IMG/VR virus record: IMGVR_UViG_3300025669_002088
Span: 1 to 64,000 of that record
Source: a virus
DNA: 64,000 nt
Strand: one strand, 5' to 3'
Shown in pieces: positions 45,974 through 63,970 of the stretch. The notes beneath the pieces were generated by a model, which worked only from the letters and a program-made list of their open reading frames with translations, was not told the origin of the DNA and did not search any database. Each line of letters begins with the position of its first letter. Within the stretch, counting starts at the first letter, position 1. Position numbers and translations under genes: made by a program.

Positions 45974-45992
45974 GAGAGCAAAGGGGGGATCC

Positions 45993-47180: not shown

Positions 47181-47227
47181 GCCTTACCCTACCCGACCCG
47201 GATTGCTCCGAGTCGGGTGGTCGGTCG

Positions 47228-48100: not shown

Positions 48101-48118
48101 TTGGTGCCTCCTCATTTG

Positions 48119-48150: not shown

Positions 48151-48161
48151 TGCTACCTTGT

Positions 48162-48187
48162 CTACTCCAACGGTCCTGGAGATGATC
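48162..48187 (-). promoter_or_regulatory. Element-specific promoter motif
   Basis: Minus strand: GATCATC - 12 nt - GGAGTAG, feeding directly into the CRISPR-repeat-like hairpin and the 290-aa gene. Confidence 0.75.
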
Positions 48188-48231
48188 CTTTCTTTTGGCT
48201 CCGTGTCCTCATTGCGTCCTCAAAGCGTTCA

Positions 48232-49306: not shown

Positions 49307-49308
49307 CG

Positions 49309-49764
49309 TCAACTCTCCTTATGCGTTCCTGTTATTGGATTGGTGTCCGCCTGCAGGGCGTAAAGTGCCCACTCTCCCCCAGGGGAGGTGACGTAGCCCT
49401 CACCATCACAACGGTCACAGTCAACTTCGTCCCCCTCACAGGAACATTCCCGTTCACTTTCGTTCACGGTGCCATCTCGTACAAGGTAGAAGGTGTCCTC
49501 ACCGACCTTGTACTTGGATGGCCACACCGTGCGCTGGAAATGACCACTGTTGGGGGCAAAGGCATACAGGGGGGCTGACAGTCCGAAGAACTCCCGGCGG
49601 CTGTGATGATCGTCATCCCCGACGACCCATGGGATGTAGTCTGTGTCCGGATCCTCCCAGACTACGACACCGAGGTTCCCGAGAGCTTCAGGGGGTGGCT
49701 CAAAGGAATAACCCCCTCCGTCAAGGTCGTAACCGATGTTGCAGTAGCGGATTTGTTCCTCCAT
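49309..49764 (-). CDS. Hypothetical protein with DnaJ-like Cys motif, 151 aa
   Basis: CSCEGDEVDCDRCDGEGYV near residue 115 carries CxC and CxxCxGxG-type spacing, as in zinc-binding DnaJ-like loops. The rest is aromatic and acidic. First gene of a four-gene operon driven by the promoter at 49784-49809. Start preceded by GAGGGCGTA. Confidence 0.65.
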   Translation of the reverse strand: MEEQIRYCNIGYDLDGGGYSFEPPPEALGNLGVVVWEDPDTDYIPWVVGDDDHHSRREFFGLSAPLYAFAPNSGHFQRTVWPSKYKVGEDTFYLVRDGTVNESERECSCEGDEVDCDRCDGEGYVTSPGGEWALYALQADTNPITGTHKES

Positions 49765-49783
49765 TACGCCCTCCTCACTTCAG

Positions 49784-49809
49784 CTACTCTGGACGCCCGC
49801 CAGATGATC
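49784..49809 (-). promoter_or_regulatory. Element-specific promoter motif (divergent pair, minus)
   Basis: Minus strand: GATCATC - 12 nt - AGAGTAG, 20 nt upstream of the 151-aa gene and back to back with the plus-strand copy. Confidence 0.75.
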
Positions 49810-49824
49810 CCTGTAACATTGCGG

Positions 49825-49850
49825 GATCATCTCGCCGGGTGGCGGAGTAG
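49825..49850 (+). promoter_or_regulatory. Element-specific promoter motif (divergent pair, plus) with leader hairpin
   Basis: Plus strand: GATCATC - 12 nt - GGAGTAG. The leader contains GGGGGCAAATGACCCC (about 49862-49877). Drives 49894 onwards. The two GATCATC boxes of the pair are 15 nt apart. Confidence 0.8.
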
Positions 49851-49893
49851 TCAGTGTGAACGGGGGCAAATGACCCCACTACAGGAGGGCACG

Positions 49894-50271
49894 ATGGATA
49901 AACCGCAAGTGAATCAGATCGTGGAGAAAGCGAAGGAAGCGATGAGCGAACTGGCGGCAGCCCTTGGGATACAGATCATCTATCGGGGCGGACGGTACGG
50001 TGAGGACACGCTTACCGTGAAGTTCGAGTTCCAGGAGATGACGGCCCACGCTGATGGTGCCTCCGATGCCGTTCCCGCTGCCTTCGCCCGCACGGCTCAG
50101 ATGTTGGGTGTCCCCACCGACAGTTTCGGCAAAACCTTCAAACAGGGGCAACGCACCTACACGGTGGTGGGCCTGAGCACCCGACGCCCCAAGTTCCCCG
50201 TGTCCGCCACCCGTGACGATGGCAAACAGTTCAAGTTCCCGATGCATGTGTTGAACCGGGTGGCAGTATGA
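49894..50271 (+). CDS. Phage conserved hypothetical protein, 125 aa
   Basis: The ATG at 49894 follows ACAGGAGGGCACG; an in-frame ATG in the leader is an alternative. The pattern MDKPQVNQIVEKAKEAMSEL, IIYRGGRYGEDTLTVKFEF, AARTAQMLGVP-like and GQRTYTVVGLSTRRPKFPV recalls a family of uncharacterised phage proteins. It overlaps the DUF2924 gene by ATGA and belongs to the same operon. Confidence 0.7.
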   Translation: MDKPQVNQIVEKAKEAMSELAAALGIQIIYRGGRYGEDTLTVKFEFQEMTAHADGASDAVPAAFARTAQMLGVPTDSFGKTFKQGQRTYTVVGLSTRRPKFPVSATRDDGKQFKFPMHVLNRVAV

Positions 50272-50939
50272 AGGCCCGTGACCCCAGGCTCCCAGCGGCT
50301 GGTGTCTTCCTCACCAGGGATTTCAAGGGGGCCAACGTCCTGGTTCAGGTGCTGGAGGACCACTTCATTTATGACGGGTCGTCTTATGGCTCCCTCTCCA
50401 AGGTCGCCTCCGTCATTACAGGGAAGGCATCGATCAACGGCTACGCCTTCTTCGGGCTGACGGACACGCAACAGCGAGAACCCAAGCGGAAAACCGCAGC
50501 GGACAGGCCGGTGCTGGACTACCCCAAAGGTTTGGACTTCAACGTGAAGGACCGAGTACATCTGACAACACTATATGGCAAAGTCCACGGGATCGTCAGT
50601 TGGTACACCACGGGGCGGGGTTACAACATCCTGACGTGCAAAGGCGATCGCAACAGCGATGTCGACAACCTCGAACTGGTCAAGGGTGATCGTTCCGAGC
50701 ACGAGATCCTGGAGAACATCACCGAGTGCTACGATGGCCTGTCCGGGGAACGCCTCACCTGTGATGGTGAAGCGTCCGCTGCTCACATACGCACCCAAAA
50801 GTGCAGCCTCAACCGGATGCTGATCTACCTGTTTGGAGAACTCGGGCGGAAGGTCACCGAAGACGAGGCATACGAGTGGGCATCGGTCCACTCCAAGGTG
50901 AACGCAGCGGTAGACGCAGCGATGGACGCACCCCGGTGA
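50268..50939 (+). CDS. DUF2924-like protein, 223 aa
   Basis: DPRLPAAGVFLTRDFKGANV, VLEDHFIYDGSSYGSLSKVAS and ITGKASINGYAFFGL are the DUF2924 core pattern (small beta-rich domain found in phages and proteobacteria). The second half, about 100-223, is specific, with a C-terminal helical segment. Function of the family is unknown. Start overlaps the preceding stop. Confidence 0.75.
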   Translation: MKARDPRLPAAGVFLTRDFKGANVLVQVLEDHFIYDGSSYGSLSKVASVITGKASINGYAFFGLTDTQQREPKRKTAADRPVLDYPKGLDFNVKDRVHLTTLYGKVHGIVSWYTTGRGYNILTCKGDRNSDVDNLELVKGDRSEHEILENITECYDGLSGERLTCDGEASAAHIRTQKCSLNRMLIYLFGELGRKVTEDEAYEWASVHSKVNAAVDAAMDAPR

Positions 50940-51124
50940 TGAAAACCGTCTCCCTGAACTTCAACGTGCCTGAGGGCATCGAGACCACGTCCGAGAACCT
51001 CGCTGCGATGAGGCAGCTTCTCCTTTCCGCTTTGGCGGAAACCCGTGACAATCAGGTGGAGGATTTCCCACAGCTTCGGAAACAACACCCGGAGTTGATA
51101 GACGCCCTCCTGACGGAGTGTTGA
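50939..51124 (+). CDS. Small acidic protein, 61 aa
   Basis: The ATG overlaps the preceding TGA. Sequence MKTVSLNFNVPEGIETTSEN then LAAMRQLLLSALAETRD. It resembles the next gene product (VxFxxP...MxQLLLxxL), suggesting a tandem duplication. No family recognised. Confidence 0.6.
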   Translation: MKTVSLNFNVPEGIETTSENLAAMRQLLLSALAETRDNQVEDFPQLRKQHPELIDALLTEC

Positions 51125-51125
51125 C

Positions 51126-51296
51126 GTGAGGGCCGTTTTCATCTCCTTCGAGACTCCCGGTGACGTGGACATCCTCCCGGACGACCCAGCCAAGATGAAA
51201 CAGCTTCTCCTGGAGGGCCTCATCGACTACAACGTTGGGGTGGCTTTGACTCAGGATGAGCTGCGGTGTGTAAACCTTTTGCTGACGGAGAATTAA
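51126..51296 (+). CDS. Small acidic protein with GTG start, 56 aa, paralogue of the previous gene
   Basis: GTG at 51126, one base after the previous stop. Reads MRAVFISFETPGDVDILPDD, then AKMKQLLLEGLIDY, and ends NLLLTEN at a TAA (51294-51296). Shares spacing and the QLLL helix with the 61-aa protein upstream. Continuous operon spacing supports expression. Confidence 0.6.
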   Translation: MRAVFISFETPGDVDILPDDPAKMKQLLLEGLIDYNVGVALTQDELRCVNLLLTEN

Positions 51297-51297
51297 C

Positions 51298-51678
51298 ATG
51301 GGTATGTCTACAGACGGCCACATCTGTTTCGGGATATTGTTCCCCGAGGACCATCCCTTCCCCTGGGAAAATGACGAGGAAGAGGAGTGGTGGGAGGAGC
51401 ACGGTCCGGGCGGGCCTCTGCCCGTGGAGTTCGTTAACGTGTGCAGTGCTGAGTACCCCCACTACGTCATTGCCGTTCCTTCCACACCTTCCACAAGTCT
51501 GATTGCGAACCGGGGATACCCCCAGGCATTCGACCCCTCAGCCTTGACGGTGACCCAGGAAGAAACCGAGGTGCTCATCCGTTTTTGCCAGGACCATTGC
51601 CTCAGCGAGATGGACCTGGTGTTTGACAAGCCGGTCGACCTGACCCCGAAATGGTATCTCGGCAGCTACTTGGGCTGA
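51298..51678 (+). CDS. Phage-type acidic hypothetical protein, 126 aa
   Basis: Begins MGMSTDGHICFGILFPED, a start seen in many phage proteins (MGxSTDGxxxYG). Very acidic and Trp-rich segment ENDEEEEWWEEHG follows. Starts 1 nt after the previous stop. Function unknown. Confidence 0.65.
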   Translation: MGMSTDGHICFGILFPEDHPFPWENDEEEEWWEEHGPGGPLPVEFVNVCSAEYPHYVIAVPSTPSTSLIANRGYPQAFDPSALTVTQEETEVLIRFCQDHCLSEMDLVFDKPVDLTPKWYLGSYLG

Positions 51679-51795
51679 TCGATGCTTCCTTGGATCCAAA
51701 CGGGGTAGTCCAAAGTGGACAGCCCGGTATTTCAAACTCCAGGAACAGATCGAAACGTTGGAGTGGGAAGTCCTCCACAAAGAAAAGGAGCCGTC

Positions 51796-52020
51796 ATGTT
51801 CGCAATCCTGATCAAAGGCAAATGGTGGAAGGTGCCCCCACGGGAGGGACACGCCACGCCCGTCACGCTGATGGATGTTCCCTGGTCAATCTCCCTGGCG
51901 CACGGTGCCGACATCATCTATGACATGGATACGGGGACGTGCCTCAAAGGATGGCCCCACCCCGACCTCGGGTGCATCCCCGTCATGCAGGGCTTCACAC
52001 CGGAGACAGGTCCTCGTTAG
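51796..52020 (+). CDS. Hypothetical protein, 74 aa
   Basis: The ATG at 51796 follows AAAAGGAGCCGTC. It is a compact protein (MFAILIKGKWWKVPPREG). The 117-nt gap before it contains a frame encoding ARYFKLQEQIETLEWEVLHK but with no good start, so it is left unannotated. Confidence 0.6.
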   Translation: MFAILIKGKWWKVPPREGHATPVTLMDVPWSISLAHGADIIYDMDTGTCLKGWPHPDLGCIPVMQGFTPETGPR

Positions 52021-52051
52021 CCCACCCGAGTCTCTTCTCGTTAGGCTGGCT

Positions 52052-52089
52052 ATAAGGCCACCTCATTGTAGAAATGGAGGTGGCCTTAT
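52052..52089 (+). promoter_or_regulatory. Hairpin covering the ribosome-binding site and start codon of the next gene
   Basis: ATAAGGCCACCTC (52052-52064) pairs perfectly over 13 bp with GAGGTGGCCTTAT (52077-52089). The second arm contains the GGAGG ribosome site and the first two bases of the ATG. Translation should be off unless the hairpin is opened. This suggests autoregulation or a leader-controlled switch. Confidence 0.7.
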
Positions 52090-52408
52090 GAGCCTACGCA
52101 AAGAGATCCTGAAACTCGCCAAAGCGAACCCCGATGGCATCCGTGCCCATCTCGTTCCTATCCTGAAGGAAGCCGTCGCAGACAAGATCTGGAAGATGAT
52201 CGGGGATCTGAAGAAGACCCCTGACGGTTCCATGACCCTGCGGGTTGGGATGCGAAGCGGCGGGAACGCCTCCACGCTCTGGCGCAAATTCCAGATGGCC
52301 AACCAGCAGCGCAAGCTCCAGGTGACCTTCGATGACACGGCACTGATCCTGACGCTCAACAGCGGCAGGGGTCCGGCACCGACGATGGATGAAGAGCCTC
52401 AGTTCTAG
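52088..52408 (+). CDS. Hypothetical protein with occluded start, 106 aa
   Basis: Basic helical N-terminus (MSLRKEILKLAKANPDGIRA and HLVPILKEAVADKIWKMIG) then TLRVGMRSGGNASTLWRKFQ. The pattern resembles small phage proteins. The start lies in a 13-bp hairpin. Its 3' end overlaps the stop of the opposite-strand gene. Confidence 0.65.
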   Translation: MSLRKEILKLAKANPDGIRAHLVPILKEAVADKIWKMIGDLKKTPDGSMTLRVGMRSGGNASTLWRKFQMANQQRKLQVTFDDTALILTLNSGRGPAPTMDEEPQF

Positions 52409-52698
52409 GCACTGTCCTCTTCGTCGTCGTTGTCCGTCTCCGTTTCCCACAGATTTCCCACAGGGAAGCTGAAAGTATCATGGTCATAGTCCGAGCACAT
52501 GGCGAGGCGCATCAGGCAGTGGACGTGAACCTCGCCATCCTCGAAGGTGATGTGATCGACCTCGGGACGGTAAACCGCTCCCTTCCTGAATTCCCGGTCG
52601 TTGTCCCACCGTGCCCAGAAACGCTTTTCGGCCAGGACCTGAAGCGATGCCGATGCCTCCAGCATCGCTTCGACCTGGGCCTTCGTGTACCCGCTCAC
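52405..52698 (-). CDS. Hypothetical protein, 97 aa, paralogue of the upstream gene
   Basis: GTG at 52696-52698 overlaps the preceding TGA. Begins SGYTKAQVEAMLEASASLQV. Shares the layout YTxxQxxAMxE...FWxRxxxDxxFR...DHDTFSFPVGNLW with the 52695-53192 product, so the two arose by duplication. Acidic tail. Function unknown. Confidence 0.65.
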   Translation of the reverse strand: MSGYTKAQVEAMLEASASLQVLAEKRFWARWDNDREFRKGAVYRPEVDHITFEDGEVHVHCLMRLAMCSDYDHDTFSFPVGNLWETETDNDDEEDSA

Positions 52699-53192
52699 GG
52701 GGTGCTCCCGTCGAGCACGTCGGGGTGCTTCTTGGCAAGCTCCTGAAGCTGTTTGCGTTCGGCCTTCTCCCGTTCCTTCCGGCGACGTTCCTCCGCCGCT
52801 TCCAGTTCCTTTTTGCGACGCTCCTCGGCCTCCTTCTGCCGCCGAGCCATGTCCACCAAGACTTCCATCTGGTCCTGCCAGAGGTAGGACAGGGGGAACT
52901 CGAAGGTGTGGTTGTCGTAACCGCAGCAGCCACACCCGCAAGCCCTGGCCTCGCAGTAAATGAAGACCGTGTCCGCATAGAAGTTGATGTTGTTGATGGA
53001 GGGAGTATGGAGGAACTCTCTCCCTTCGTAGTCCTCCTCATCCTTCGCCGCATCATCCTCATCCCATTCGAGGCAGCGGAACCTGGGGTCGGCGTGATAC
53101 CGATCCCAGAAATAGTCCTGGGCCAGTTTGTTGAGCTTGTCCTGCCCTTCGACCATTGCCCGGATCTGTTCCTCGGTGTACTCAGCGTTCAT
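52695..53192 (-). CDS. Hypothetical protein with Cys cluster and C-terminal coiled coil, 165 aa
   Basis: The N-terminal domain (YTEEQIRAMVEGQDKLN, FWDRYHADPRFR) ends with CEARACGCGCCGYDNHTF, a possible zinc site. Then about 50 residues of Glu/Lys/Arg-rich coiled coil (EERRKKELEAAEERRRKERE). The paralogue downstream lacks both Cys cluster and coiled coil. Promoter at 53244-53269. Confidence 0.7.
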   Translation of the reverse strand: MNAEYTEEQIRAMVEGQDKLNKLAQDYFWDRYHADPRFRCLEWDEDDAAKDEEDYEGREFLHTPSINNINFYADTVFIYCEARACGCGCCGYDNHTFEFPLSYLWQDQMEVLVDMARRQKEAEERRKKELEAAEERRRKEREKAERKQLQELAKKHPDVLDGSTP

Positions 53193-53243
53193 GATGCCAC
53201 CGCCTTTAGGTTCCCCAGGGGATCCCCGTTGTCAACACACCAT

Positions 53244-53269
53244 CTACTCTGTCCGGCCCAGCGATGATC
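53244..53269 (-). promoter_or_regulatory. Element-specific promoter motif overlapped by a palindrome
   Basis: Minus strand: GATCATC - 12 nt - AGAGTAG. The -35-like box lies within an inverted repeat AGCGATGATC/GATCATCGCT (53260-53287, 10-bp arms, 8-nt loop), a possible operator. Confidence 0.75.
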
Positions 53270-53355
53270 CACCAATCGATCATCGCTGACTTTGGGAGAG
53301 ACGGTGAAAGGACAATACGGAGTAGAAGGAACGTGATTAGCGGCGGCTGGTAGGT

Positions 53356-53811
53356 CTATTTGCCGGGTGGTGTCTCGCCCGTGAGTAAGAAGTAGATCAG
53401 CGCCGCCAGTATCGTAAGCACTGCCGTGCCACCCCCCCCGATCAAACCATAACGCATGGCCGTCTTCTTCAGGGTACCCGTTGCTTCCTTCAGAGTCGCA
53501 ATGTCGGTCACTGCTGTGTCCGTCTTGATGCGAAGGTCCAACAGACCGATGTCCTCGATCCGTTGGTTAAATGAGGTCTCGGCCTTCTGGTATGCATCGG
53601 TGACGGCCTTCTGGACGGCACCAGGGATGTCGTCCACGGTCTTCTGTAGTCTCGTGACCTTATCGCAGAGAGACTTGTAGTCTCGGCTGGTGGTCCTGTC
53701 AGTCTCTATCTTCTCAACCGACTCCTTCAGGTGTTCTAGAGCTTGGGTCACTTGTCCTTGCCATTTCCAGAAGGTACGATCCGCATCAATGGGGGGTGTG
53801 CCAGTCATCAT
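53356..53811 (-). CDS. Coiled-coil protein with C-terminal membrane anchor, 151 aa
   Basis: A long coiled coil (about 25-105) is followed by KKTAMRYGLIGGGGTAVLTI and LAALIYFLL, a single C-terminal transmembrane segment. Length and topology resemble XhlA-like phage membrane proteins (holin-associated), without proof. It begins within 1 nt of the cupin gene's end. Confidence 0.65.
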   Translation of the reverse strand: MMTGTPPIDADRTFWKWQGQVTQALEHLKESVEKIETDRTTSRDYKSLCDKVTRLQKTVDDIPGAVQKAVTDAYQKAETSFNQRIEDIGLLDLRIKTDTAVTDIATLKEATGTLKKTAMRYGLIGGGGTAVLTILAALIYFLLTGETPPGK

Positions 53812-54336
53812 CTACTCCACGGGTATTAGCTTGAGTTTGACGCAGTCAACAGCGACAGAAGCAGAAGCAGCGCAACGACCAGATCGGTGTAGGAGACAGA
53901 ACCGTGGCTCTTTGGAACCCTTTTCCTCCTCTCGTAGCACAAAGTTTTGCTCGGGGGGTGCGAGAAGAACCCAACCAGAACAAGGGCCATCCTCAGGTTT
54001 ACAGAGCACCTCGTGGGGAGTGTTGGCACGGACAATGAGGCTGTCCCCAGGTCGGGACAACACAGTGGTCCCCTCCTCGGTTTTACAGATGAATTTCCCA
54101 CCCCTCAGAAGTCCAATGGTTTCGATTACGTCCTTGTGTACGTGCTTGGGGAAGGTGGTAGGCTCTACCCCCTTGTAGTCCCACAACAGAAGCATGACGT
54201 GTCCGTTGCAGAAAGCCGCTGAGATAGTCATCCCATGGAGGTTGAAGGACAATTCGTCCTCGGGCAACGCCGTATCCAATGCATCGGATAGCGTTCGCAA
54301 CTCCTGGAACAGCACCTCTCGTTCTAACTCGGCCAT
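53812..54336 (-). CDS. Cupin-domain protein, 174 aa
   Basis: FPKHVHKDVIETIGLLRGGK then RPGDSLIVRANTPHEVL are the two conserved cupin motifs with His, His, Glu and the second His. A small-molecule-binding or enzyme role is possible. The N-terminal helix precedes the barrel and the C-terminus has two Cys. Start MAELEREVLFQELR. Substrate unknown. Confidence 0.75.
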   Translation of the reverse strand: MAELEREVLFQELRTLSDALDTALPEDELSFNLHGMTISAAFCNGHVMLLLWDYKGVEPTTFPKHVHKDVIETIGLLRGGKFICKTEEGTTVLSRPGDSLIVRANTPHEVLCKPEDGPCSGWVLLAPPEQNFVLREEEKGSKEPRFCLLHRSGRCAASASVAVDCVKLKLIPVE

Positions 54337-54437
54337 GCCACACCCCAGTGCCTCCAGCAGTCTAAGCGTCGAGCGGCGTTTGAACCTCTACTGGAGGGGC
54401 ACTATTGAAGGGAAAACGGGGCCGGGTGTCCTTTTGG

Positions 54438-54463
54438 GATCATCTCCTCCGACCCCAGAGTAG
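54438..54463 (+). promoter_or_regulatory. Element-specific promoter motif plus leader hairpin
   Basis: Plus strand: GATCATC - 12 nt - AGAGTAG, then GAGGGGCAAATGACCCT (about 54471-54487), then the gene at 54501. Drives a four-gene operon to 56654. Confidence 0.8.
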
Positions 54464-54500
54464 TAGAGGTGAGGGGCAAATGACCCTGAAGGAGAACGAG

Positions 54501-55265
54501 ATGAAAACCAACGCCAACAGCAAACTGCTCGCCGTCATGCTCGAAAAGGCTCACGCTGGTTTCACCGGATTGCAGATCACAAAAAAGGGAACGGTCCGGG
54601 GCGGTCTCGTGTACGGAGATGAAAGGGTTTGGGTTACACTCATTACGGGGTTCCACTATGATCGCCTCGTGCAGCGCAGTCTGAATGTCCTCCCGGACGT
54701 GTGGGCCACGGACATGATCACCAAGGCCGCAGCCGAGGGCCACACAATCACGGTAGCGGACGTTGAGCAGGCACGGGGCGAGTTGATTGCCTCCTTCGAG
54801 AGGAGCCTCGCCGGGAACAACACCTCGGACAGCACCGCAACCAACAGTCACGTATTCGAACCGCTGGTGGTTGACGGGGAGACCGTCCGGGGGAGCAAGG
54901 TCTATCATTGCGTAAAGGGAACACGGGACAGGAATGGAGCCTACCGGATGTGCCACTGCCGGAACTGTACGGGAGAACCCCGTGCCGCCTTGCCGGGAAC
55001 CATTTATCTCCACGCTCTCAAGACACATTCCAAGGTGCTGGAACCTGCCCCAAATGGTCCAATCCCGGAGCCCAACAGCAAACCCAAAACCATCGCCAAG
55101 AACACCCTGCGGTCAATGCTCCCGGTCAGCCGCTACGTCAGCTATGTCCTGGAGCCGGGTACAGGCTTCATTCTCGCTGCAGGCGGGGTGGCGAAAATCA
55201 TGGCAGCGGAAAATGGCTTCATTGCAACCGACGAGGTTGTCCAGATCGTACAGCAGGTGATCTGA
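54501..55265 (+). CDS. Hypothetical protein, 254 aa, paralogue of 57319-58137
   Basis: The ATG at 54501 follows GAAGGAGAACGAG; an in-frame ATG in the leader is an alternative. Shared with the gene at 57319-58137: KKGxVRGGxxYGDxxVxVxxxTGFHYxxLVxRS and a C-terminal AKxxIRxxLPVxxYVxYxL. An insertion with CHCRNCTGEP may bind metal. The conserved middle (ALPGTIYLHALKTH) is also shared. Function unknown. Confidence 0.7.
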   Translation: MKTNANSKLLAVMLEKAHAGFTGLQITKKGTVRGGLVYGDERVWVTLITGFHYDRLVQRSLNVLPDVWATDMITKAAAEGHTITVADVEQARGELIASFERSLAGNNTSDSTATNSHVFEPLVVDGETVRGSKVYHCVKGTRDRNGAYRMCHCRNCTGEPRAALPGTIYLHALKTHSKVLEPAPNGPIPEPNSKPKTIAKNTLRSMLPVSRYVSYVLEPGTGFILAAGGVAKIMAAENGFIATDEVVQIVQQVI

Positions 55266-55450
55266 TGAAGGGCACTGACAAACACCAGTGTAAATGGTGC
55301 AAGCAAAGGAAAGCGGTCTCCTCTGTCCGAGGGCGAAACTTCCGGTGGCGGCAGGATCACCCTCTCTGTTTCCAGTGTTACCGTTCACTACAAGAACGTC
55401 TGAAGCAACAATTGATCGTAGCCCAAACCCAGGAACAGGTGGCTGTCTGA
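55265..55450 (+). CDS. Small zinc-finger-like protein, 61 aa
   Basis: The ATG overlaps the preceding stop (TGATG). CKWCKQRKAV and PLCFQCYRSL provide four Cys of a treble-clef-like finger, within a basic protein. May bind nucleic acid. Confidence 0.65.
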   Translation: MKGTDKHQCKWCKQRKAVSSVRGRNFRWRQDHPLCFQCYRSLQERLKQQLIVAQTQEQVAV

Positions 55451-56085
55451 TGGTTACATTCATCCAGATCGTCCTGAGCTGGTTTGTGGTCGGGGGGTTT
55501 GTCCAGATGCTGTTGTTCCTCGCAGGACTGGCTGGGAGTTACACCCGAGGACCCGAGTACGCCACCTGGGTGAACGAGCACCCCCACAGGCCCAAGGACA
55601 GACCGATGACCCCGAAGACCCTCTTCCTTCTCCTGGGGATGTGGCCGGTCTTCCTGTTCATCTTCCTCAGGGCATGTCAGGCACACCAGACCCCTGACGA
55701 GTGGGTGCTGCGGACAGCAGAGCGACAGGACCAACGACAACGAGACCAGATCGAAGCTGCTGTGGTCCGTATCCATTGGTGGAGTAATTTCACTACCAGG
55801 ATAGCCACCGAGGGCAACCCCTTGATCTACGTTCGGACGGTGTTTTACAAAGACGGTTCCGGGGCCACCACCCACATGGTTCTCGGAGGCCCTGACAGCG
55901 TGTACCTGCCCGTGAGGCTGTCAGACCAGGACCGACCGCTAGTTGCACCAATGAAACCTGTGCGGACGTTAGACGCAGCCAAGCGGCTGTGTGACGAGGA
56001 CATCAAATGGTTGACAGCATGCCTTCCTGGGAACGAGGTTTCGAGGAGTGTCCTGTCCCGTCAAAGCAAGGAGATCCCCATATGA
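55450..56085 (+). CDS. Membrane protein with two transmembrane segments, 211 aa
   Basis: Starts at the overlapping stop. Transmembrane helices at about 3-30 (FIQIVLSWFVVGGFVQMLLF) and 55-75 (TLFLLLGMWPVFLFIFL) are followed by a soluble C-terminal domain (VRIHWWSNFTTRIATEG, TVFYKDGSGATTHMVLG). No family recognised. Confidence 0.65.
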   Translation: MVTFIQIVLSWFVVGGFVQMLLFLAGLAGSYTRGPEYATWVNEHPHRPKDRPMTPKTLFLLLGMWPVFLFIFLRACQAHQTPDEWVLRTAERQDQRQRDQIEAAVVRIHWWSNFTTRIATEGNPLIYVRTVFYKDGSGATTHMVLGGPDSVYLPVRLSDQDRPLVAPMKPVRTLDAAKRLCDEDIKWLTACLPGNEVSRSVLSRQSKEIPI

Positions 56086-56654
56086 CCGCTTCCAACAGAT
56101 GCCCCCTGTGTGGCAACCCTCAGATCGGCTGTAACCTGGACTGTTCCCACTGTCGTGTGGTGGCCCGGAAGAACTACCGGGGCCGTCCAACGAAGATCAA
56201 CCTCTACCTGGATGACGTCCGGGGTTGTCCCTTTCCCGGCGACACGGAAGGTCCCTGGTACGAATCAAGACACATGAAGATCATCCCAGACGAACCAGGT
56301 GAGGGTATCGATTGGTTCGTCGTCCGCACCTACGCACGGTGCATCGAGATGCTCCAGCAGGAGGCCATCGGGACCCTGTCCCTGGACCACGACATCGCTG
56401 ACTACAGTCCCGAGAAGGGGCGTGAGGTGACGGGATATGATGTCCTGTGCTGGCTGGAAGAGCAACTCGATCGAGACATCAATTTCCCGATCCCGAACGA
56501 TATCAGGGTCCACTCCGCCAACCCGGTAGGACGGAAGCGCATGGCCTCTGTGATCGAGCGGCTGGCCCGGAAACGGGATCTGCTGGCACGGATGAACAGA
56601 CGACAGGAAGACACCCCCTCACCAAGTCGGTGGGGAAATGGGCTGAACAAGTGA
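56082..56654 (+). CDS. Cyclic-phosphate-processing receiver-like (cREC) protein with zinc ribbon
   Basis: Of 190 aa, CPLCGN and CSHCRV at the N-terminus form a zinc ribbon. Then INLYLDDVRGCPFP, RTYARCIEMLQQEAIGTLSL with DHDIAD, GYDVLCWLEE and IRVHSANPVGRKRM match the cREC family pattern (LDD-R..., LDHDL, GYD, HSANP-G-RM). That family is predicted to act on cyclic-phosphate ends. With RtcB and a HAD_SAK-like phosphatase in the same window, RNA-end repair is a coherent inference. Confidence 0.75.
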   Translation: MTASNRCPLCGNPQIGCNLDCSHCRVVARKNYRGRPTKINLYLDDVRGCPFPGDTEGPWYESRHMKIIPDEPGEGIDWFVVRTYARCIEMLQQEAIGTLSLDHDIADYSPEKGREVTGYDVLCWLEEQLDRDINFPIPNDIRVHSANPVGRKRMASVIERLARKRDLLARMNRRQEDTPSPSRWGNGLNK

Positions 56655-56672
56655 GCAAACGATAGGTACCGG

Positions 56673-56698
56673 GATCATCTGACCGACCTACAGAGTAG
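56673..56698 (+). promoter_or_regulatory. Element-specific promoter motif upstream of the macrodomain gene
   Basis: Plus strand: GATCATC - 12 nt - AGAGTAG. The leader has GAGGGCAAAGGACCCCC, the hairpin variant without ATG. Confidence 0.8.
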
Positions 56699-56739
56699 TC
56701 TAGGTGAGGGCAAAGGACCCCCGCAAGGAGACACGCAAA

Positions 56740-57312
56740 ATGAGGCTGCATTACTACCGGGGGAACATCGTCCACGCACAGGTGGACGCCATCGTGAACG
56801 CTGCCAACCCCAGGATGCTTGGCGGTGGGGGGGTCGACGGGGCCATTCACCGAGCGGCGGGTCCGGGGCTGAGGGCTGCGTGCAGGGAGTTCCCCGAGTT
56901 GGAACAGGGTGTCCGCATTCGGGTCGGACAGGTTCGGACGACCGAGGGCTTCGACCTGGACGCCGATTTCGTCATCCACACGGCGGGGCCGATCTTCGCT
57001 GGGTACGGCATACGAAGCCTCCGACCGGGCGAGCGGGTCGAACCCCGGCCCCTCAATGAACTCATGCACTGCATCGTCAACTGCCTGAAGGAAGCGGCCC
57101 GGATCGGAGCCAACAGGGTCGCCTTCCCCGCCATCTCAGCAGGGGTCTACGGGGGCAGCGTGTCGGCCTTTGCCCACGCCCTCCACGAGGCCATGAAACA
57201 GGAAGCCCGCCTCCCCATCGAGGAGGTCCAGGTCGTCCTGTTCCAGGACAACGAGTTCCAGGAGTTTAGCGACTGGCAGGAAACAGCGGACGACGCTCCG
57301 CCCATCCCCTGA
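56740..57312 (+). CDS. Macrodomain (ADP-ribose-binding) protein
   Basis: The ATG at 56740 follows CAAGGAGACACGC; 190 aa. IVHAQVDAIVNAANPRMLGG then GGVDGAIHRAAGPGL is the macrodomain ADP-ribose loop with the NAAN and GGGVxxAI motifs. VAFPAISAGVYGG is the second binding loop. Such proteins read or remove ADP-ribose or bind its derivatives. A PARP is encoded at 31591-33132, so the element has both a likely writer and a likely eraser. Confidence 0.92.
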   Translation: MRLHYYRGNIVHAQVDAIVNAANPRMLGGGGVDGAIHRAAGPGLRAACREFPELEQGVRIRVGQVRTTEGFDLDADFVIHTAGPIFAGYGIRSLRPGERVEPRPLNELMHCIVNCLKEAARIGANRVAFPAISAGVYGGSVSAFAHALHEAMKQEARLPIEEVQVVLFQDNEFQEFSDWQETADDAPPIP

Positions 57313-58137: not shown

Positions 58138-58180
58138 TTGCTGCACCTCCTGTCTGTACTACTCCATCGGGAAACGAAGG

Positions 58181-58206
58181 GATCATCTGAGAGGCCCACT
58201 GAGTAG
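58181..58206 (+). promoter_or_regulatory. Element-specific promoter motif
   Basis: Plus strand: GATCATC - 12 nt - TGAGTAG, 22 nt before the 58228 gene. Drives the helicase and HA-repeat operon. Confidence 0.75.
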
Positions 58207-58227: not shown

Positions 58228-58560
58228 ATGGCGGAAAAGGACGACACCAAAGAACTGAAGATGTGGTACGCTTTTGGGTTTCGGTCTCCCACGCAGTCAC
58301 ACCACCTCTATGAGGGGCGTATCGAGGCCGAGACCATAGAGGACGCCTTCGACTTCGTGTTCCGCCACGCTGACAACAGGAACAGGTTCAAACGCTATGT
58401 CGGTTTTTGGGTGCAGGAAAACATGATGAGCCGCACAGGGGATCTGCGTGTCGGATGGATCACCCCCTCAAGATACATGTCCCCCTCCTACCAGTGGAGA
58501 TTACGAAAACCCGAAGACGTCCCGTTGAGGACGGAGGTGACAGCAAATGAAAACCCCTGA
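58228..58560 (+). CDS. Hypothetical protein, 110 aa
   Basis: Follows GTAGGAGGGTCTGACT. Contains YEGRIEAETIEDAFDFVFRH and WVQENMMSRTGDLRVGW. Overlaps the helicase start by 14 nt, so it belongs to the helicase operon. No family recognised. Confidence 0.65.
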   Translation: MAEKDDTKELKMWYAFGFRSPTQSHHLYEGRIEAETIEDAFDFVFRHADNRNRFKRYVGFWVQENMMSRTGDLRVGWITPSRYMSPSYQWRLRKPEDVPLRTEVTANENP

Positions 58561-60526
58561 AACTCGTACCTTGCGCCCCTATCAGCAGGACTGTTTCCGG
58601 CACTTGTTCCGGCACGTCACCAACGGGAGACGAGAGGTAGTGCTGAGTGGTCCCACCGGAAGCGGCAAATCCCTCATGGTGACCTATCTGGCCGAACGGT
58701 TGCTCAACACGGAGATGTTTCGGTTAGCCGTTGTTCTCGCCCCACAGTGTCAGATTTCGGATGCCTTCATCTATGAGGGAGACCTGAAGATCCGCCCCAG
58801 CGAGGAAGTACCCCAGGGAAGAGTGTCTGTTGGGGGGCCACTCACGGTAGCGGCCCTTCAGTGGTTCCAAGTTCGGGATGGTAAGCGCCGGGAGTACCTC
58901 AAAGATCACGTCAGAAGTGTCCGCCCGGTTAACCGGGTGCTGGTCACGACACATATGGCGGCGGCAGTCTGGTTTGCCCCTGACCTTCTCCCCAAGGACA
59001 TGACCGGGCGTCTCCTGATCGTGGACGAGGCACACCACACAGCCCCCGAGAACGGTGTGGGTACCTTCGTCAAGGAGTGGCAGACCCGAGGGGGCACAGT
59101 CATTCACGTGACTGCCACGCCCTTCCGCACGGACGGTGATACCCTTATTGATGACAACGCCCCCCGCTGGGACCGCACGCTGGCATCCCACATGGAGGGA
59201 GGCCAGTACGCACCGGGGCAGCTTTCTTTCCGCACACATCCTCTGGGCATAAAGGCGAACACGACGAATCAGCTTGCTGGCGAGTCCATGACCAGTACTG
59301 CCCCACTCCAAACCTGTATCGACATCGTGGACTTGTGGGTCAAGGACAAGCGCCCCAAGGCTGTCATCATCGTCCCCGCTAACAGTGCCGATGCGTGGTC
59401 TAAACGGCTGGAGGACGAGTTCACCAGGCAGGGAGCGAGGGTACACAACGCCATCAAGGGGGGGCAACGAGCCACCGACGCCCTCAAGCACCTCCTCCGA
59501 AAGGAACGTCGGGTCCGAGCCTACGAGGACTCCACCGTAGACGTGATCCTTGCCTGTGCCCGGTTCAATGAGGGAACCGACTGGCCCCTGTGCAGCCATG
59601 TCTACAACATCGGCCTGACCAGTTCCTTCGTCCGCATCCTTCAACGCCTGGGGCGGGCGTTGCGCTTCAAGGGAGCCATCGATGGCTACCCCGAGGAGCA
59701 CAAGAACACGGCCACCTTCACCTTCCTGGTACCCTGTGTGACCGAGAACTTGTTTGCCCAGTTCGAACAGCAGCACCAGGATCATGCCTTCCTGACGGCG
59801 TGCTTCATGGCGGATTTTAGTGTCGGCCAGGACTACATCCTGGGGGACATCCAGCGACGTTTGGAGGACATCGGGCACAAGCGTCAGGGCAAAAAGCATC
59901 GCCCGGCGGAGGAAACCTGGGAGGATGTCACCCAGTTCATCGGGGCTGATGTTCAACAGTGCCGGGAGGCCATGGGTCTCATGGTCAAGGCCGTTATCCT
60001 TCTCCGTGAGAGTGGGGTCAAGAAACCGACCAACAAAGAGGTGGCCCACTACCTGAGGACAGCGATGCGGTTGTCCAAGGAGCAGATGGAACAGGCTGAA
60101 CGAGCACTGGCGTACAGCATCCTCAAAAAACAAACCCGAGCCTTCTCCTACTTTCACAAGACCCTGTGGAGGAAGGCCCAGGGCGGGGATTTGTCTGACT
60201 ACCGCATCATCCGAGAGGAGTTGAGGCCGGTCTTCGACGCAGTGATCCAAGAGTTCGAAGGGGCGACGGCGGACATTGGTCAGGCGGACAGGGTCGTTGA
60301 CTTCCTGTCCCGTTTCGAGGGCAGGACAGCGAAGCAGGTCGCTGAACGTCTGAAAGCTGCGATACCTCCGCCACAGTTCACCTTGGCTCAGATAGATGAC
60401 GCCTTGATGTCCTACTTTGAGGAGCACAAAGTTGAACCCCCTATTGATAACACCGACGCTTCCCCTCACTTCAAGCTCCCCCCGATCACAATCAACTGGA
60501 AGCAGGTCTACGGGCAGATGCCATGA
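58547..60526 (+). CDS. SF2 DEAD/DEAH-type DNA helicase
   Basis: 659 aa. TLRPYQQDCFRHLF (Q-motif-like), SGPTGSGKSLMV (Walker A, about 35), VTTHMAAAV, IVDEAHHTAPE (motif II), HVTATPFRTDG (motif III), ACARFNEGTDWPLC and RILQRLGRALRF (motif VI) identify an SF2 helicase of the restriction-helicase/XPB-like group. About 250 C-terminal residues are helical and unassigned. Related bacterial helicases often end in HA repeats; here the repeats are instead on the following four genes. Confidence 0.9.
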   Translation: MKTPETRTLRPYQQDCFRHLFRHVTNGRREVVLSGPTGSGKSLMVTYLAERLLNTEMFRLAVVLAPQCQISDAFIYEGDLKIRPSEEVPQGRVSVGGPLTVAALQWFQVRDGKRREYLKDHVRSVRPVNRVLVTTHMAAAVWFAPDLLPKDMTGRLLIVDEAHHTAPENGVGTFVKEWQTRGGTVIHVTATPFRTDGDTLIDDNAPRWDRTLASHMEGGQYAPGQLSFRTHPLGIKANTTNQLAGESMTSTAPLQTCIDIVDLWVKDKRPKAVIIVPANSADAWSKRLEDEFTRQGARVHNAIKGGQRATDALKHLLRKERRVRAYEDSTVDVILACARFNEGTDWPLCSHVYNIGLTSSFVRILQRLGRALRFKGAIDGYPEEHKNTATFTFLVPCVTENLFAQFEQQHQDHAFLTACFMADFSVGQDYILGDIQRRLEDIGHKRQGKKHRPAEETWEDVTQFIGADVQQCREAMGLMVKAVILLRESGVKKPTNKEVAHYLRTAMRLSKEQMEQAERALAYSILKKQTRAFSYFHKTLWRKAQGGDLSDYRIIREELRPVFDAVIQEFEGATADIGQADRVVDFLSRFEGRTAKQVAERLKAAIPPPQFTLAQIDDALMSYFEEHKVEPPIDNTDASPHFKLPPITINWKQVYGQMP

Positions 60527-61230
60527 ACAAGTTCCGCAAAAGACTGGCCGAAATGGGGCTGGTGGAACCCGTATCCGAATGGTTCCTGGACTACGTGGCC
60601 CGTATGACACGGTACATGGAGGAAAATGACGGGAGGACACCCCCTCAGACGTATGCCTGCGAAGATGGGTACAAGCTAGGGTCGAAAACCAACTCCATCC
60701 GAACTAGCTACCGCCGAGGAACTGGTCATAAGCTTACGTCCGAGATGATTCGGATGCTCGATGACATTGGCTTCCCGTGGAACGGGAACGGGTGGTTCAA
60801 AGGTGTCCTTCGCCGTCTGATTGAGTACAAGGCGGAACACGGTCACTGCGCCCCCCCTGGCACGCATGTCCACCATGACGGATACAAGCTGGGGAAACGA
60901 GTACAAGTGATCCGTTCCGGAAGGAGGGGCATAGGTAGTCTCAAGGTCACCTCCGAGATGGTCGAGCAGCTTGACGCTATAGGGTTTGTCTGGGACGCCT
61001 GCAACACTGGCAAATGGTGGCCAGAGTTCTACGCCCACATCAAAGCGGTGCTGGAAAAGTACCCCGTGGGCCACATCCCGAAGGACTACGTGTGCCCCGA
61101 TGGGTACAAGTTGGGAGAAAAGGCGAGCCATGTTCGATGCGGGAGACGAGGCAAAGGTTTCCTCCAAGTGATCCCCGAGATGATCGCCAAACTTGATGCC
61201 CTCGGTTTCCTCTGGGTGGTTCCGAGATGA
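60523..61230 (+). CDS. HA-repeat protein 1 (three helicase-associated domains)
   Basis: The ATG overlaps the helicase stop. The 235-aa protein consists of three units of about 70 aa, each with W-F...L..Y...HG-P..Y.C.DGYKLG, then VR..R.G...T.EM...LD.IGF-W. These are HA domains (PF03457 type), three-helix modules thought to bind nucleic acid. Nothing else is in the protein. It is probably a partner of the helicase. Confidence 0.85.
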   Translation: MNKFRKRLAEMGLVEPVSEWFLDYVARMTRYMEENDGRTPPQTYACEDGYKLGSKTNSIRTSYRRGTGHKLTSEMIRMLDDIGFPWNGNGWFKGVLRRLIEYKAEHGHCAPPGTHVHHDGYKLGKRVQVIRSGRRGIGSLKVTSEMVEQLDAIGFVWDACNTGKWWPEFYAHIKAVLEKYPVGHIPKDYVCPDGYKLGEKASHVRCGRRGKGFLQVIPEMIAKLDALGFLWVVPR

Positions 61231-62153
61231 ACAAGTTCCGGCAACGCCTCAGTGTGTTGGGTTATGTGCCTTCCTGGCCAGCTTGGTTTGACCTCTTCCT
61301 GGAGAAACTGAAGGAATACAAAAAGGAGCGTGGGCACTGTCAGGTGCCTAAATCCTACAAGTGTCCCGAGGACGGGTACCATCTGGGGGAACGGGTAATG
61401 GTTGTTCGGTCAGCTAAGAGAGGCAAAGGGAACGTCACACTGACCGACGAGATGACCAAGGAACTCGACGCCATCGGTTTCGTATGGGATCCGAGGGAGT
61501 GGTTCCCTGAGTTCCTGGAGAAACTGAAGGAATACAAAAAGGAGCGTGGGCACTGTCAGGTGCCTAAATCCTACAAGTGTCCCGAGGACGGGTACAAGCT
61601 CGGGGGCAGAGTAGATAATGTCCGACAAGCTAAGAGAGACAAAGGGAGACTCAAAATAGCCCCCGAAATGATCAAGGAACTCGACGCCATTGGGATCGTG
61701 TGGGATCCGAGGGAGTGGTTCCCTGAGTTCCTGGTGAGGCTGAGGGAATACAAAAGGGAGCATGGCCACTGTCAGGTGCCGACGTCCTACAAGTGGCCCG
61801 AGGACGGATACCATCTGGGGGAACGGGTAAGGGGTGTTCGGTCAGCTAAGAGAGGCAAAGGGACGGTCATCCTGACCGACGAGATGACCAAGGAACTCGA
61901 TGCCATCGGGTTCGTGTGGGATCCGAAGGAGTGGTTCCCTGAGTTCCTGGTGAGGCTGAAGGAATACAAAAAGGAGCACGGGGACTATCAGGTGCCCACA
62001 TCCTACAAGTGTCCCGAGGACGGGTACAAGCTCGGGACACGGGTAAAGGGTGTCCGACAAGCTAAGAGAGGCATAGGCAGGATCAAAGTGACTCCCGAGA
62101 TGATCAAGGAACTCGACGCCATCGGTTTCGTGTGGGAGGTCATCCGTGCGTAG
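61227..62153 (+). CDS. HA-repeat protein 2 (four near-identical helicase-associated domains)
   Basis: 308 aa with four HA units. At DNA level the units repeat with an exact 216-bp period (anchor GGAGAAACTGAAGG-type sequence at 61301, 61517, 61733 and 61949), and long stretches are identical, so the duplication is recent. Variation is concentrated after GxRV (MV, DN, RG, KG) and in the following VR.AKR.KG segment, likely the surface that contacts DNA or RNA. Start overlaps the previous stop. Confidence 0.88.
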   Translation: MNKFRQRLSVLGYVPSWPAWFDLFLEKLKEYKKERGHCQVPKSYKCPEDGYHLGERVMVVRSAKRGKGNVTLTDEMTKELDAIGFVWDPREWFPEFLEKLKEYKKERGHCQVPKSYKCPEDGYKLGGRVDNVRQAKRDKGRLKIAPEMIKELDAIGIVWDPREWFPEFLVRLREYKREHGHCQVPTSYKWPEDGYHLGERVRGVRSAKRGKGTVILTDEMTKELDAIGFVWDPKEWFPEFLVRLKEYKKEHGDYQVPTSYKCPEDGYKLGTRVKGVRQAKRGIGRIKVTPEMIKELDAIGFVWEVIRA

Positions 62154-63150
62154 GAGGAGCAACAAATTCAGACTGCGGCTCGTTGAGCTTGGGCGGATGA
62201 AACCTTGGCCAGCGTGGTTCGATGAGTTCCACTCCCACCTTCAGACGTACAAGGCGGAGCACGGGGATTGTGAAGTGCCCCACAACTACAAGTGTGAAGA
62301 CGGGTACCGCTTAGGGAACAAGGTGGGGCGAATCCGTTCCGCAAGGAAGCGCCCATCAAACCGTGTGTTGACGGAGGAGATGAGTACTGCCCTCGATGCC
62401 ATCGGTTTTGACTGGCTGGCTCCAAAAGATCGCTGGTTCCAAAAGTTCCGGGTTCGTCTGGTGGAATATATGACCGCTCACGACGGCCAAAACCCACCCG
62501 TTCCTTATGAGTGCCCCGATGGATACACCCTGGGTAAAACTGCCGCCGCTGTTCGGGCAGCGAAACGGGCAAGGGCACTGAATAAGAAGGCGTTCCGGCA
62601 ACTCACGGATGAGATAATTGCTGACCTGGACGCACTTGGATTTGAATGGGAACCCTCGGAATGGTTCCCCGACTTTGTGCAGCGTTTGCGTGAATACAAG
62701 GCGGAACATGGGAACTGTTCGATCCCTGTCAAATTTGAATGTGCGGATGGACACAAGTTAGGCCTGAGGGTCCAACGCATCCGAACGAGCATCCGCCGGT
62801 TGGAGGAGGGCAGCGATGAGTCGATGCCCCTCCAGGTCACCCCAGAGATGGTCTTAAAACTGGATGCCCTCGGGTTCGAGCGGGACCGGAACCTGACGGG
62901 CAAATGGTTCCCCAAGTACCTCAGTCACCTGACGAAGTTCTACCGGGAGCACGGCGACAGCATGGTGCCCAGGGGATATTGCTGTCGGGATGGGTACAAG
63001 TTAGGGGCCATGACGAACAGCGTTAGAGAGGGCCGTAGGGACGCAACAGGTCGGAGGAAAATCACCCTGCCCATGGTTGCTGATCTAGCTGCCCTCGACT
63101 TTATGTGGGATGTTCGAATAACGGGATCATCTCGGCCACCTACAGAGTAG
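62146..63150 (+). CDS. HA-repeat protein 3 (about four to five helicase-associated domains)
   Basis: GTG start overlapping the preceding TAG; 334 aa. Opens NKFRLRLVELGRMKPWPAWF, then HA units of about 70-80 aa, more diverged from each other than in protein 2. One unit has an expanded loop (RRLEEGSDESMPL). The next promoter copy lies within its last codons. Confidence 0.85.
   Translation: MRRRSNKFRLRLVELGRMKPWPAWFDEFHSHLQTYKAEHGDCEVPHNYKCEDGYRLGNKVGRIRSARKRPSNRVLTEEMSTALDAIGFDWLAPKDRWFQKFRVRLVEYMTAHDGQNPPVPYECPDGYTLGKTAAAVRAAKRARALNKKAFRQLTDEIIADLDALGFEWEPSEWFPDFVQRLREYKAEHGNCSIPVKFECADGHKLGLRVQRIRTSIRRLEEGSDESMPLQVTPEMVLKLDALGFERDRNLTGKWFPKYLSHLTKFYREHGDSMVPRGYCCRDGYKLGAMTNSVREGRRDATGRRKITLPMVADLAALDFMWDVRITGSSRPPTE
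63125..63150 (+). promoter_or_regulatory. Element-specific promoter motif
   Basis: Plus strand: GATCATC - 12 nt - AGAGTAG at the end of HA-repeat gene 3, 20 nt before the GTG of gene 4, which can thus be transcribed alone. Confidence 0.8.
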
Positions 63151-63169
63151 TCTTGGTAGGAGGTCGTCC

Positions 63170-63970
63170 GTGGGCAAAAGGAACAACAAATTCCGTGAAC
63201 GTCTCGCCAAGCTTGGGCTGATGAAACCTTGGCCAGCGTGGTTCGATGTGTTCCTGGCACATCTGAAGGCGTACAAGGAAGAACACGGGGACTGTAAGGT
63301 GCCGCAGCTTTACAAGTGTACTGACGGGTACACATTGGGGAACAGGGTCGGGGACATTCGCAGGTTTCGACAAGGGAAAAGTGTTCGGACAGTGACTCCC
63401 TCAATGGTGCCTGTACTGGATCAACTCGGTTTCCTTTGGGAGATCCCCTGTTGGTTCGACGAGTTCCTCCGGCGTCTGAAGGACTATAAAGCCGAGTACG
63501 GCCATTGTCAGGTGCCCACCCAGTACAGATGTCAGGACGGGTATAGACTTGGCCCAAAAGTGAATGCTGTTCGGACAGGCAAAAGGCACAAAGTGGGCGT
63601 CCAAATCACCCCGAGCAGGGCGGAGAAACTTGAGCAACTAGGTTTCCTGTGGGATGTCCCGACAGAGTGGTTCCCGGAGTTCCTGGAACATTTGAAGGCG
63701 TACAAGGCCGTGCATGGCCGTTGTCAGGTGCGTGGCACCTATGTATGCGATGATGGCTACAAACTAGGCCATCACACAGCGGGGGTACGAAATCACCGGG
63801 TCTTGACCCCCACTATGCGGAGCCAACTCGGTGCTCTCGGCTTTGTCTGGGACGCCACCACGAAAGGGCAGTGGTGGCCGGAGTTCCTTTGTCACCTCAG
63901 AGAGTACATGGACGCACACGGGGGACAGACACCCCCCCAAAAATACGTCTGCCCCGGCGGATGGCCGTAA
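63170..63970 (+). CDS. HA-repeat protein 4, apparently frameshifted at its 3' end
   Basis: GTG start after AGGAGGTCGTCC. Three full HA units and part of a fourth (266 aa). At about 63950 the unit should read CPxDGxKL, but the frame reads CPGGWP and stops. One base less in the CCCC run near 63950 restores ADGRKLTPTQINQI, a normal HA continuation to the window end. So this is either a real frameshift or a sequence error; the gene continues beyond the window. Confidence 0.75.
   Translation: MGKRNNKFRERLAKLGLMKPWPAWFDVFLAHLKAYKEEHGDCKVPQLYKCTDGYTLGNRVGDIRRFRQGKSVRTVTPSMVPVLDQLGFLWEIPCWFDEFLRRLKDYKAEYGHCQVPTQYRCQDGYRLGPKVNAVRTGKRHKVGVQITPSRAEKLEQLGFLWDVPTEWFPEFLEHLKAYKAVHGRCQVRGTYVCDDGYKLGHHTAGVRNHRVLTPTMRSQLGALGFVWDATTKGQWWPEFLCHLREYMDAHGGQTPPQKYVCPGGWP

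Follow-up and report, generated by a model that had tools for sequence, protein, structure and literature searches.

What use does a bacterial virus have for six separate proteins made of helicase-associated (HA) repeats, encoded in a row behind a helicase that carries none? The question is raised by a locus at the end of the window, by which we mean the whole 64,000-nucleotide stretch of DNA analysed here (bases 1-64000 of the 125,741-bp IMG/VR virus record IMGVR_UViG_3300025669_002088). Six HA proteins in one locus behind a helicase are what is unusual here. In one of them, H2, nonsynonymous change is in excess at four positions of a single helix of the repeat, and these positions are thus under diversifying selection. 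Taken with HA arrays found elsewhere, this suggests repeats that recognise specific targets, probably DNA, and that are retuned in the course of evolution. A fuller reading, to which we give about an even chance, is that HA repeats are modular target-reading units, several detached arrays of which serve one motor in this phage.

A helicase and six stand-alone HA proteins

The locus consists of the following elements, of which the last three lie beyond the window.

58180..58206, + strand: promoter-like motif GATCATC-N13-GAGTAG, preceded by one G, at the head of the locus
58228..58560, + strand: open reading frame (ORF) of 110 amino acids (aa) without a Pfam match; GGAGG 5′ of its ATG, 14-bp overlap with the helicase start
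58547..60526, + strand: superfamily 2 (SF2) helicase/translocase, 659 aa, HA-less, with GPTGSGKS, DEAH, TATP and QRLGRALR motifs and Pfam matches
60523..61230, + strand: H1, stand-alone HA protein of 3 units (HA match 3.8e-24); ATGA overlap with the helicase stop
61227..62153, + strand: H2, stand-alone HA protein of 4 units in a 216-bp tandem array (2.8e-53); ATGA overlap with H1
62146..63150, + strand: H3, stand-alone HA protein of 4 units (5.4e-39); 8-bp overlap with the H2 end
63124..63150, + strand: second promoter-like motif, which doubles as coding sequence for the H3 C-terminus
63170..63970, + strand: H4, stand-alone HA protein of 3 units and a broken fourth (4.2e-36)
Past the window end, ahead of H5: ORF of 229 aa without a Pfam family
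Record 64716-65435: H5, HA protein of 3 units
Record 65459-65794: H6, HA protein of 1 unit and a half

Pfam bears out the sequence-only reading of a helicase followed by stand-alone HA proteins, and the locus is larger than that reading had it, as H5 and H6 lie past the window. The record holds 18 matches to the HA family (PF03457), all within 60592-65773; 17 of them lie above the curated cut-off of 28.4 bits (15 alone, 2 with in-frame neighbours) and one below, and the whole-protein scores of H1-H6 range from 73 to 178.5 bits. The four proteins in the window are indeed made only of HA units, although the number of units is three, four, four, and three plus a broken fourth, rather than the three to five claimed. 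H1-H5 share the start NKFR-RL....G, followed in four of the five by WPAWF, and therefore look like one paralogous family. All six proteins are basic (isoelectric point 9.3-10.1). The GC content of the HA genes, overall and at third codon positions, deviates by less than two standard deviations from the average of 46 genes in the window, giving no compositional sign of a recent foreign insert.

The arrays grow by duplication of units, as had been proposed, and some copies decay. Tandem Repeats Finder (TRF) reports a period of 216 at 61296-62137, with 3.9 copies, 82% matches and 0% indels, which agrees with the periodicity noticed earlier; a period of 432 scores even higher in this array (87% matches), suggesting that pairs of units were duplicated. 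Whole genes have been copied as well, with an identical leader, GGTAGGAGGTCGTCCGTGGGCA, preceding H4 and H5. Decay is seen in the fourth H4 unit, which is disrupted near 63,960 by a deletion and a frameshift, and in the first H6 unit, which is halved.

The HA unit

Each HA unit of about 72 aa is predicted to form three helices. In an alignment of the 18 phage units (A1), W1, D30, G31, L34, G35 and L61 are invariant. Structure prediction of H2 from 5 sequences gives three helices per unit (mean predicted local distance difference test score, pLDDT, 79.2; predicted template modelling score 0.41), and prediction of a single unit from 36 sequences places them at 2-16, 34-45 and 55-64 (pLDDT 82.6). 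Comparison of the H2 model with 980 chains yields 89 with Z>=2 and one with Z>=5; the best is 2kta (Z 5.7, root-mean-square deviation 4.8, 74 residues aligned), a solved 74-residue domain of a putative helicase, to which an HA unit of the bacterial protein L086 described below also shows sequence similarity (E 0.01). As 2kta is missing from the match list of the single-unit model and Foldseek finds no match in the PDB at E<=0.001 for either model, we take this fold match as supportive only. Pfam scans of H1-H6 show no zinc-finger family. The phage units mostly carry [RK]V..[VI]R with a longer loop, in contrast to the WV..QR of the bacterial type. The Pfam text for PF03457 ventures that the domain 'may bind nucleic acid'; no paper on its function was among the best-ranked literature matches, and two jumbo-phage papers use neither 'HA domain' nor 'helicase-associated' as a term.

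Diversifying selection on one face of helix 2 in H2

The four positions lie at offsets +2, +5, +6 and +9 from a conserved Leu, corresponding to helix-2 positions i, i+3, i+4 and i+7. In each of the four H2 units they fall within the predicted helix 2, where they would form one exposed face. Zinc fingers recognise DNA through positions -1, 2, 3 and 6, which have the same spacing. A concentration of variation at a few positions had been noticed in the sequence, and H2 bears this out: the face positions rank 1-4 of 65 columns for change, with a proportion of nonsynonymous differences (pN) of 0.63 against 0.11 elsewhere (permutation p 0.00005). The proportion of synonymous differences (pS) at the face is only 0.14, whereas the remaining helix-2 positions have pN 0.00 and pS 0.38, and positions outside helix 2 have pN 0.09 and pS 0.22. 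Of the 64 complete H2 columns, 39 are invariant and 5 show at least three residues, three of these being face positions; the overall ratio of nonsynonymous to synonymous rates (dN/dS) across H2 unit pairs is 0.35-0.70. Purely neutral variation between units, one half of the outcome that would have counted against the sequence-only reading, is not what H2 shows: in a neutral simulation on its 4 similar units, the face pN is reached with p 0.0005, 0.0007 and 0.0045 at synonymous divergences (dS) of 0.33, 0.45 and 0.60, respectively.

Because the face columns were noticed in pooled entropies that include H2, 24 arrays outside the locus were tested too. With arrays of fewer than three units excluded, 29 were tested in total, 5 of them from this phage (one including the broken H4 unit), with the units placed by profile alignment. 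Outside the locus, pN at the face exceeds pN in the rest of the unit in 23 of the 24 arrays, with permutation p<0.05 in 12, and the other four arrays of this phage show a face excess as well (p 0.0066-0.035). Pooled over 66 close unit pairs outside the locus, the face has pN/pS 0.65/0.48, as against 0.32/0.46 for the other helix-2 positions and 0.34/0.39 elsewhere. Among 133 units of bacterial genomic or plasmid origin, entropy ranks offsets +2, +6 and +9 first to third, and +5 seventh. The claim of a changeable specificity thereby gains support, albeit indirect, from the selection on one face in H2 and from the 23 outside arrays. Across 157 units, the face is rich in Ser (14.4%), Asn (10.4%), Thr (9.9%) and Gln (8.4%), compared with 3.4, 2.4, 3.9 and 4.3% elsewhere, and poor in Asp and Glu (together 5.8% versus 12.8%).

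HA arrays outside the locus

HA proteins were surveyed in two phyla, with genomes drawn around one Actinomycetota and one Myxococcota genome, and are infrequent there: one phylum has them in 16 of 396 genomes, the other in 7 of 377. Among the plasmid records searched, 190 match H2. Among seven plasmid neighbourhoods examined, four hold long single genes (919-1093 codons), one a stand-alone HA gene, and in two the annotation divides the helicase part and the HA part into two overlapping genes. Two contigs of 9.2 and 9.5 Mb (G029 C1 and G134 C1) have HA genes no more than about 7 kb from either end, a placement that would suit the termini of linear chromosomes.

Two bacterial proteins bear on what HA arrays might do. 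The part of L086 ahead of its 13 HA units aligns over ~600 residues with LlaBIII (E 1.9e-93), reaching LlaBIII residue 657 of 1578, and in part with LlaGI (8.2e-70); both L086 and L085, which has 9 HA units, match the PADLOC model for Type IIG as far as position ~645 of 1646. A Type ISP enzyme, as set out in PMC4666363, joins nuclease, helicase-like ATPase, coupler, methylase and DNA-recognition domain in a single chain. The HA arrays of L085 and L086 occupy the place of the methylase and target-recognition parts, which is one of our main reasons for regarding HA as a part that recognises targets. In their own right, both proteins are candidate defence enzymes, consisting of a Type ISP/IIG-like nuclease-helicase and an HA array.

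HA domains had been taken to be short C-terminal tails of helicases, which is too narrow in view of these 9- and 13-unit proteins and of stand-alone HA proteins elsewhere. The latter include a 219-aa protein of 3 units at genome locus L078, a 116-aa protein of 1 unit on viral contig L023, and a 223-aa protein on Streptomyces plasmid NZ_CP108001; by name and length only, proteins of Siphoviridae ctNU74 (414 aa) and Hyperionvirus (377 aa) belong here as well. The alignment scan that gave L023 also gave L024, where a helicase is fused to 4 HA units. Like the phage proteins, the stand-alone proteins consist of HA repeats to which no helicase is joined, although the stretches L078, L099 and L023 hold a single HA gene each and the phage locus has six. 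The bacterial HA helicases (L085, L086 and the plasmid proteins) share with the phage proteins the PF03457 family, tandem arrays, and raised change at the same helix-2 columns, but combine array and helicase in one protein, whereas the phage has six separate HA proteins and an HA-less helicase.

The helicase

The helicase at 58547-60526 has Pfam matches to ResIII (1.6e-11), DEAD (3.7e-7) and Helicase_C (1.4e-5), with GPTGSGKS at residue 35, DEAH at 160, TATP at 189 and QRLGRALR at 366, followed by ~260 C-terminal residues without a Pfam family. It resembles the phage helicase family phrog_16 (4e-29), and its best PADLOC match is PbeA (2.1e-9). No HA unit is found in it by Pfam, and a custom HA profile with filters off scores -3.9 bits at best. 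The final residues of the protein, INWKQVYGQM, resemble the start of HA helix 1 by eye only; the profile search did not support the notion of a split HA helicase, and we rejected it.

A phage motor with a separate target-reading part would resemble the Type ISP enzymes LlaBIII and LlaGI, whose nuclease-helicase part is shared with the bacterial L086. The phage helicase differs from these in that a Pfam scan finds no nuclease or methylase family in it, and a PDB sequence search at E<=0.001 does not recover LlaBIII (its sole matches are two DHX58 chains, at 8.6e-4). It differs equally from the HA nuclease-helicases: its helicase domain starts at residue 8, it lacks an N-terminal nuclease part, a LlaBIII-like core and an in-chain HA array, and its similarity to the HA helicases compared is at noise level, with nothing beyond general SF2 motifs. 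The proposal that one helicase serves the arrays is drawn from the gene order, the 4-bp and 8-bp overlaps and a probably shared control; the helicase itself shows neither an HA remnant nor kinship to the HA helicases compared.

Proposed detached target-reading subunits for a phage translocase

Combining these results, we propose that the locus supplies detached target-reading subunits for a phage translocase. Each three-helix unit would present a helix-2 face whose four positions differ between units, and three to four units in a row would together read a composite target, with duplex DNA the most likely candidate. Tandem copying would act on single units and on entire genes, after which the four positions would diversify under selection and some copies decay. 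The upstream HA-less SF2 helicase would be the probable motor, recruited to or stopped at sites marked by the arrays, in a relation akin to that of restriction motors depending on a specificity part. The phage would probably deploy its arrays against changing targets, such as rival mobile DNA, host DNA or modified sites, and the selective pressure would come from defence or from the DNA of rivals or of the host. A face enriched in Asn, Ser, Thr and Gln and depleted of Asp and Glu, the basic proteins, and the two bacterial arrays behind a restriction-type part point to nucleic acid as the ligand. A similar way of working, rather than kinship, is seen in C2H2 zinc-finger arrays of the PRDM9 type, which likewise combine tandem unit turnover with positive selection, there at the DNA-recognition positions according to PMC3890296. 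The HA proteins differ from C2H2 zinc fingers in lacking a zinc-finger family match, and in that their reading of DNA is putative.

Several points weigh against this proposal. No physical link between the helicase and the HA proteins is known, and scans of viral contigs and of records sharing sequence elements with this phage found no relative with the same locus. The columns were picked from the entropies of all 18 phage units, making the H2 permutation value partly circular; the test outside the locus is not circular, yet its arrays are not all mutually independent. In the phage arrays outside H2, the face signal is weaker and older, and the closest listed unit pairs there are saturated (dS >1 or not computable), so that selection is demonstrated in one gene only. 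With H2 excluded, phage-unit entropy is highest at offset -13, with +2, +6 and +9 in second, sixth and seventh place, and +5 is absent among the ten listed offsets; other positions thus vary too. Several Streptomyces arrays have pN near pS in the rest of the unit and a weak face excess, and one array (L141) is the sole exception without a face excess. The four face sites tolerate many residues, with no restricted code visible. Finally, a protein ligand would produce an identical selection signal.

This last point is the strength of a rival explanation in which the variable face binds proteins, so that each array captures different proteins of the host or of rival phages, for instance parts of a defence system. 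The selection signal is silent on the ligand, and the phage has other likely host-interaction genes (a PARP with a WGR domain, and a macro-domain protein), but the composition of the face, the basic proteins, and the two bacterial arrays behind a restriction-type nuclease-helicase part make a protein target quite unlikely in our view. Somewhat better placed, though still unlikely, are sequence-blind clamps or loading factors that would give processivity to a phage recombination or repair helicase, with the copies serving as dosage or length variants. Basic HA proteins, a helicase resembling phrog_16, and a Pfam name that derives from helicases would all suit such clamps; a protein that ignores sequence would hardly be expected to show a nonsynonymous excess confined to four sites in one helix.

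Alternatively, the detached arrays might be counter-defence decoys that occupy the sites or partners of host HA nuclease-helicases, thereby blocking them. Such enzymes exist in bacteria and the diversification would fit an arms race, yet the phage units are unlike the bacterial type, HA is present in few genomes of the two phyla surveyed, and a decoy would have no need of the helicase in its operon; we consider it improbable. Least credible is a duplicate family in birth and death without a present function: the broken fourth H4 unit and the halved first H6 unit are what such a family would leave, but a dN/dS of 0.35-0.70 over H2 unit pairs, rejection of the neutral model at the face, and the retention of long open frames and promoter-like motifs make it very improbable.

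The proposal of detached target-reading subunits could be carried further. On a broader claim, which we advance tentatively and hold to be somewhat less than an even prospect, HA would be a previously unrecognised modular DNA-reading repeat, each ~70-aa unit of which offers a single helix with four variable residues, acting as the changeable target-recognition array of bacterial nuclease-helicases and as a detached, swappable specificity bank for one phage motor. The bank would be comparable to restriction specificity subunits assembled from modules of the zinc-finger kind. If HA units do read DNA in a modular fashion, bacteria and phages would possess a natural repeat system whose specificity can be changed, beside transcription activator-like effectors (TALEs) and zinc fingers, and this would account for target choice by HA nuclease-helicases that have no methylase. 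The four-residue face thus offers a directly testable hypothesis for a domain present in plasmids and bacterial genomes.

Control of the locus

The motif GATCATC-N13-GAGTAG at the head of the locus has 75 exact copies, of which 27 belong to this record and 48 to the linked record G004, with 0 in the reversed-sequence control and 0 in 77 kb of other loci; spacings of 11, 12, 14 and 15 give 0, 1, 1 and 0 copies. It stands directly ahead of a ribosome-binding site at 58180, at 63124 and, beyond the window, at 65409. Further sites in the window include 56672, 36477, 33199 and 18488, and the motif is also found ahead of cas3, the PARP gene, the macro-domain gene and rtcB. From its position and fixed spacing only, we read it as the probable promoter of this phage, and a phage-specific sigma factor or RNA polymerase may be its reader. 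The gene overlaps, the common N-terminal start and the three copies of the motif point to a phage-controlled locus. Adjoining the HA genes is a LAGLIDADG homing-endonuclease-like ORF with helix-turn-helix parts (record 66339-67589), and another LAGLIDADG match lies within a long DNA-helicase ORF (record 112298-116479).

The phage and its relatives

The source is probably a very large bacterial virus; the 125.7-kb record and the 188.2-kb record G004, each short of the 200 kb that marks a huge tailed phage, are fragments. This record encodes a DNA polymerase, a DnaB-like helicase, a DNA primase and further DNA-helicase families, and G004 encodes rIIA, a DNA ligase and a protein of the '2-aminooxy adenylosuccinate synthetase' family; none of the scanned proteins matches a capsid, and terminase-family matches are weak and partial. 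G004 has window positions 42821-45317 in common at 100%, in addition to the promoter-like motif. A 54.6-kb record, G003, is 100% identical to window 1-28325 and 45315-57116 and 99.86% to 28326-42946, joined differently. The window itself contains a perfect 127-bp inverted repeat (1-127, at the start of the record, and 45315-45441), beside which lies a dispersed ~355-bp repeat (44961-45317) common to TnpB-like genes. As G003 joins the repeat sites differently, the order of the window at ~45.3 kb is probably an assembly misjoin.

Searches for relatives of the locus returned none. Viral-contig scans with H2 and the helicase singly confirmed nothing, and none of 50,697 phage records was matched by H2 in a tblastn search at E<=1e-3. 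Three contigs picked up by two HA-motif DNA patterns were rejected as HA-less, L092 by family search and our own profile, and L093 and L094 by our own profile on the fetched stretch. Neither HA nor a similar helicase was found in G003, G004 and 15 further motif-sharing records, an absence that is weak because the records sharing the motif or the CRISPR repeat are fragmentary and the controls gave no signal.

A type I-C-like CRISPR-Cas system (Cas3, Cas5, Csd1 and Cas7; no search was made for cas1, cas2 or cas4) is encoded at 36508-43930, with an array of at least 13 repeats that decay at its far end. The repeat pattern recurs in the two viral records G003 and G004 and is absent from the genome contigs searched. 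A ~528-kb 'huge' phage from Ace Lake, Antarctica, is described in PMC7416419 as carrying type I-C CRISPR-Cas without cas1, cas2 and cas4, and the records analysed here are likely to belong to this phage. TnpB-like genes are present in several copies (window 34294-35802, record 68905-70326, and G004) with about 76-89% DNA identity, along with shorter copies of ~290-355 bp; the second gene has a family match. As a clue to the host, the TnpB protein led to three loci, two in one Myxococcota bin (72%) and one in an Actinomycetota bin (61%), which is too weak to point to either. The phage also encodes both the PARP with a WGR domain (31591-33138) and the macro-domain protein (56704-57312), and an ORF at record 74116-75027 resembles an ADP-ribosylglycohydrolase by eye only; together, these might form a set for writing and erasing ADP-ribose.

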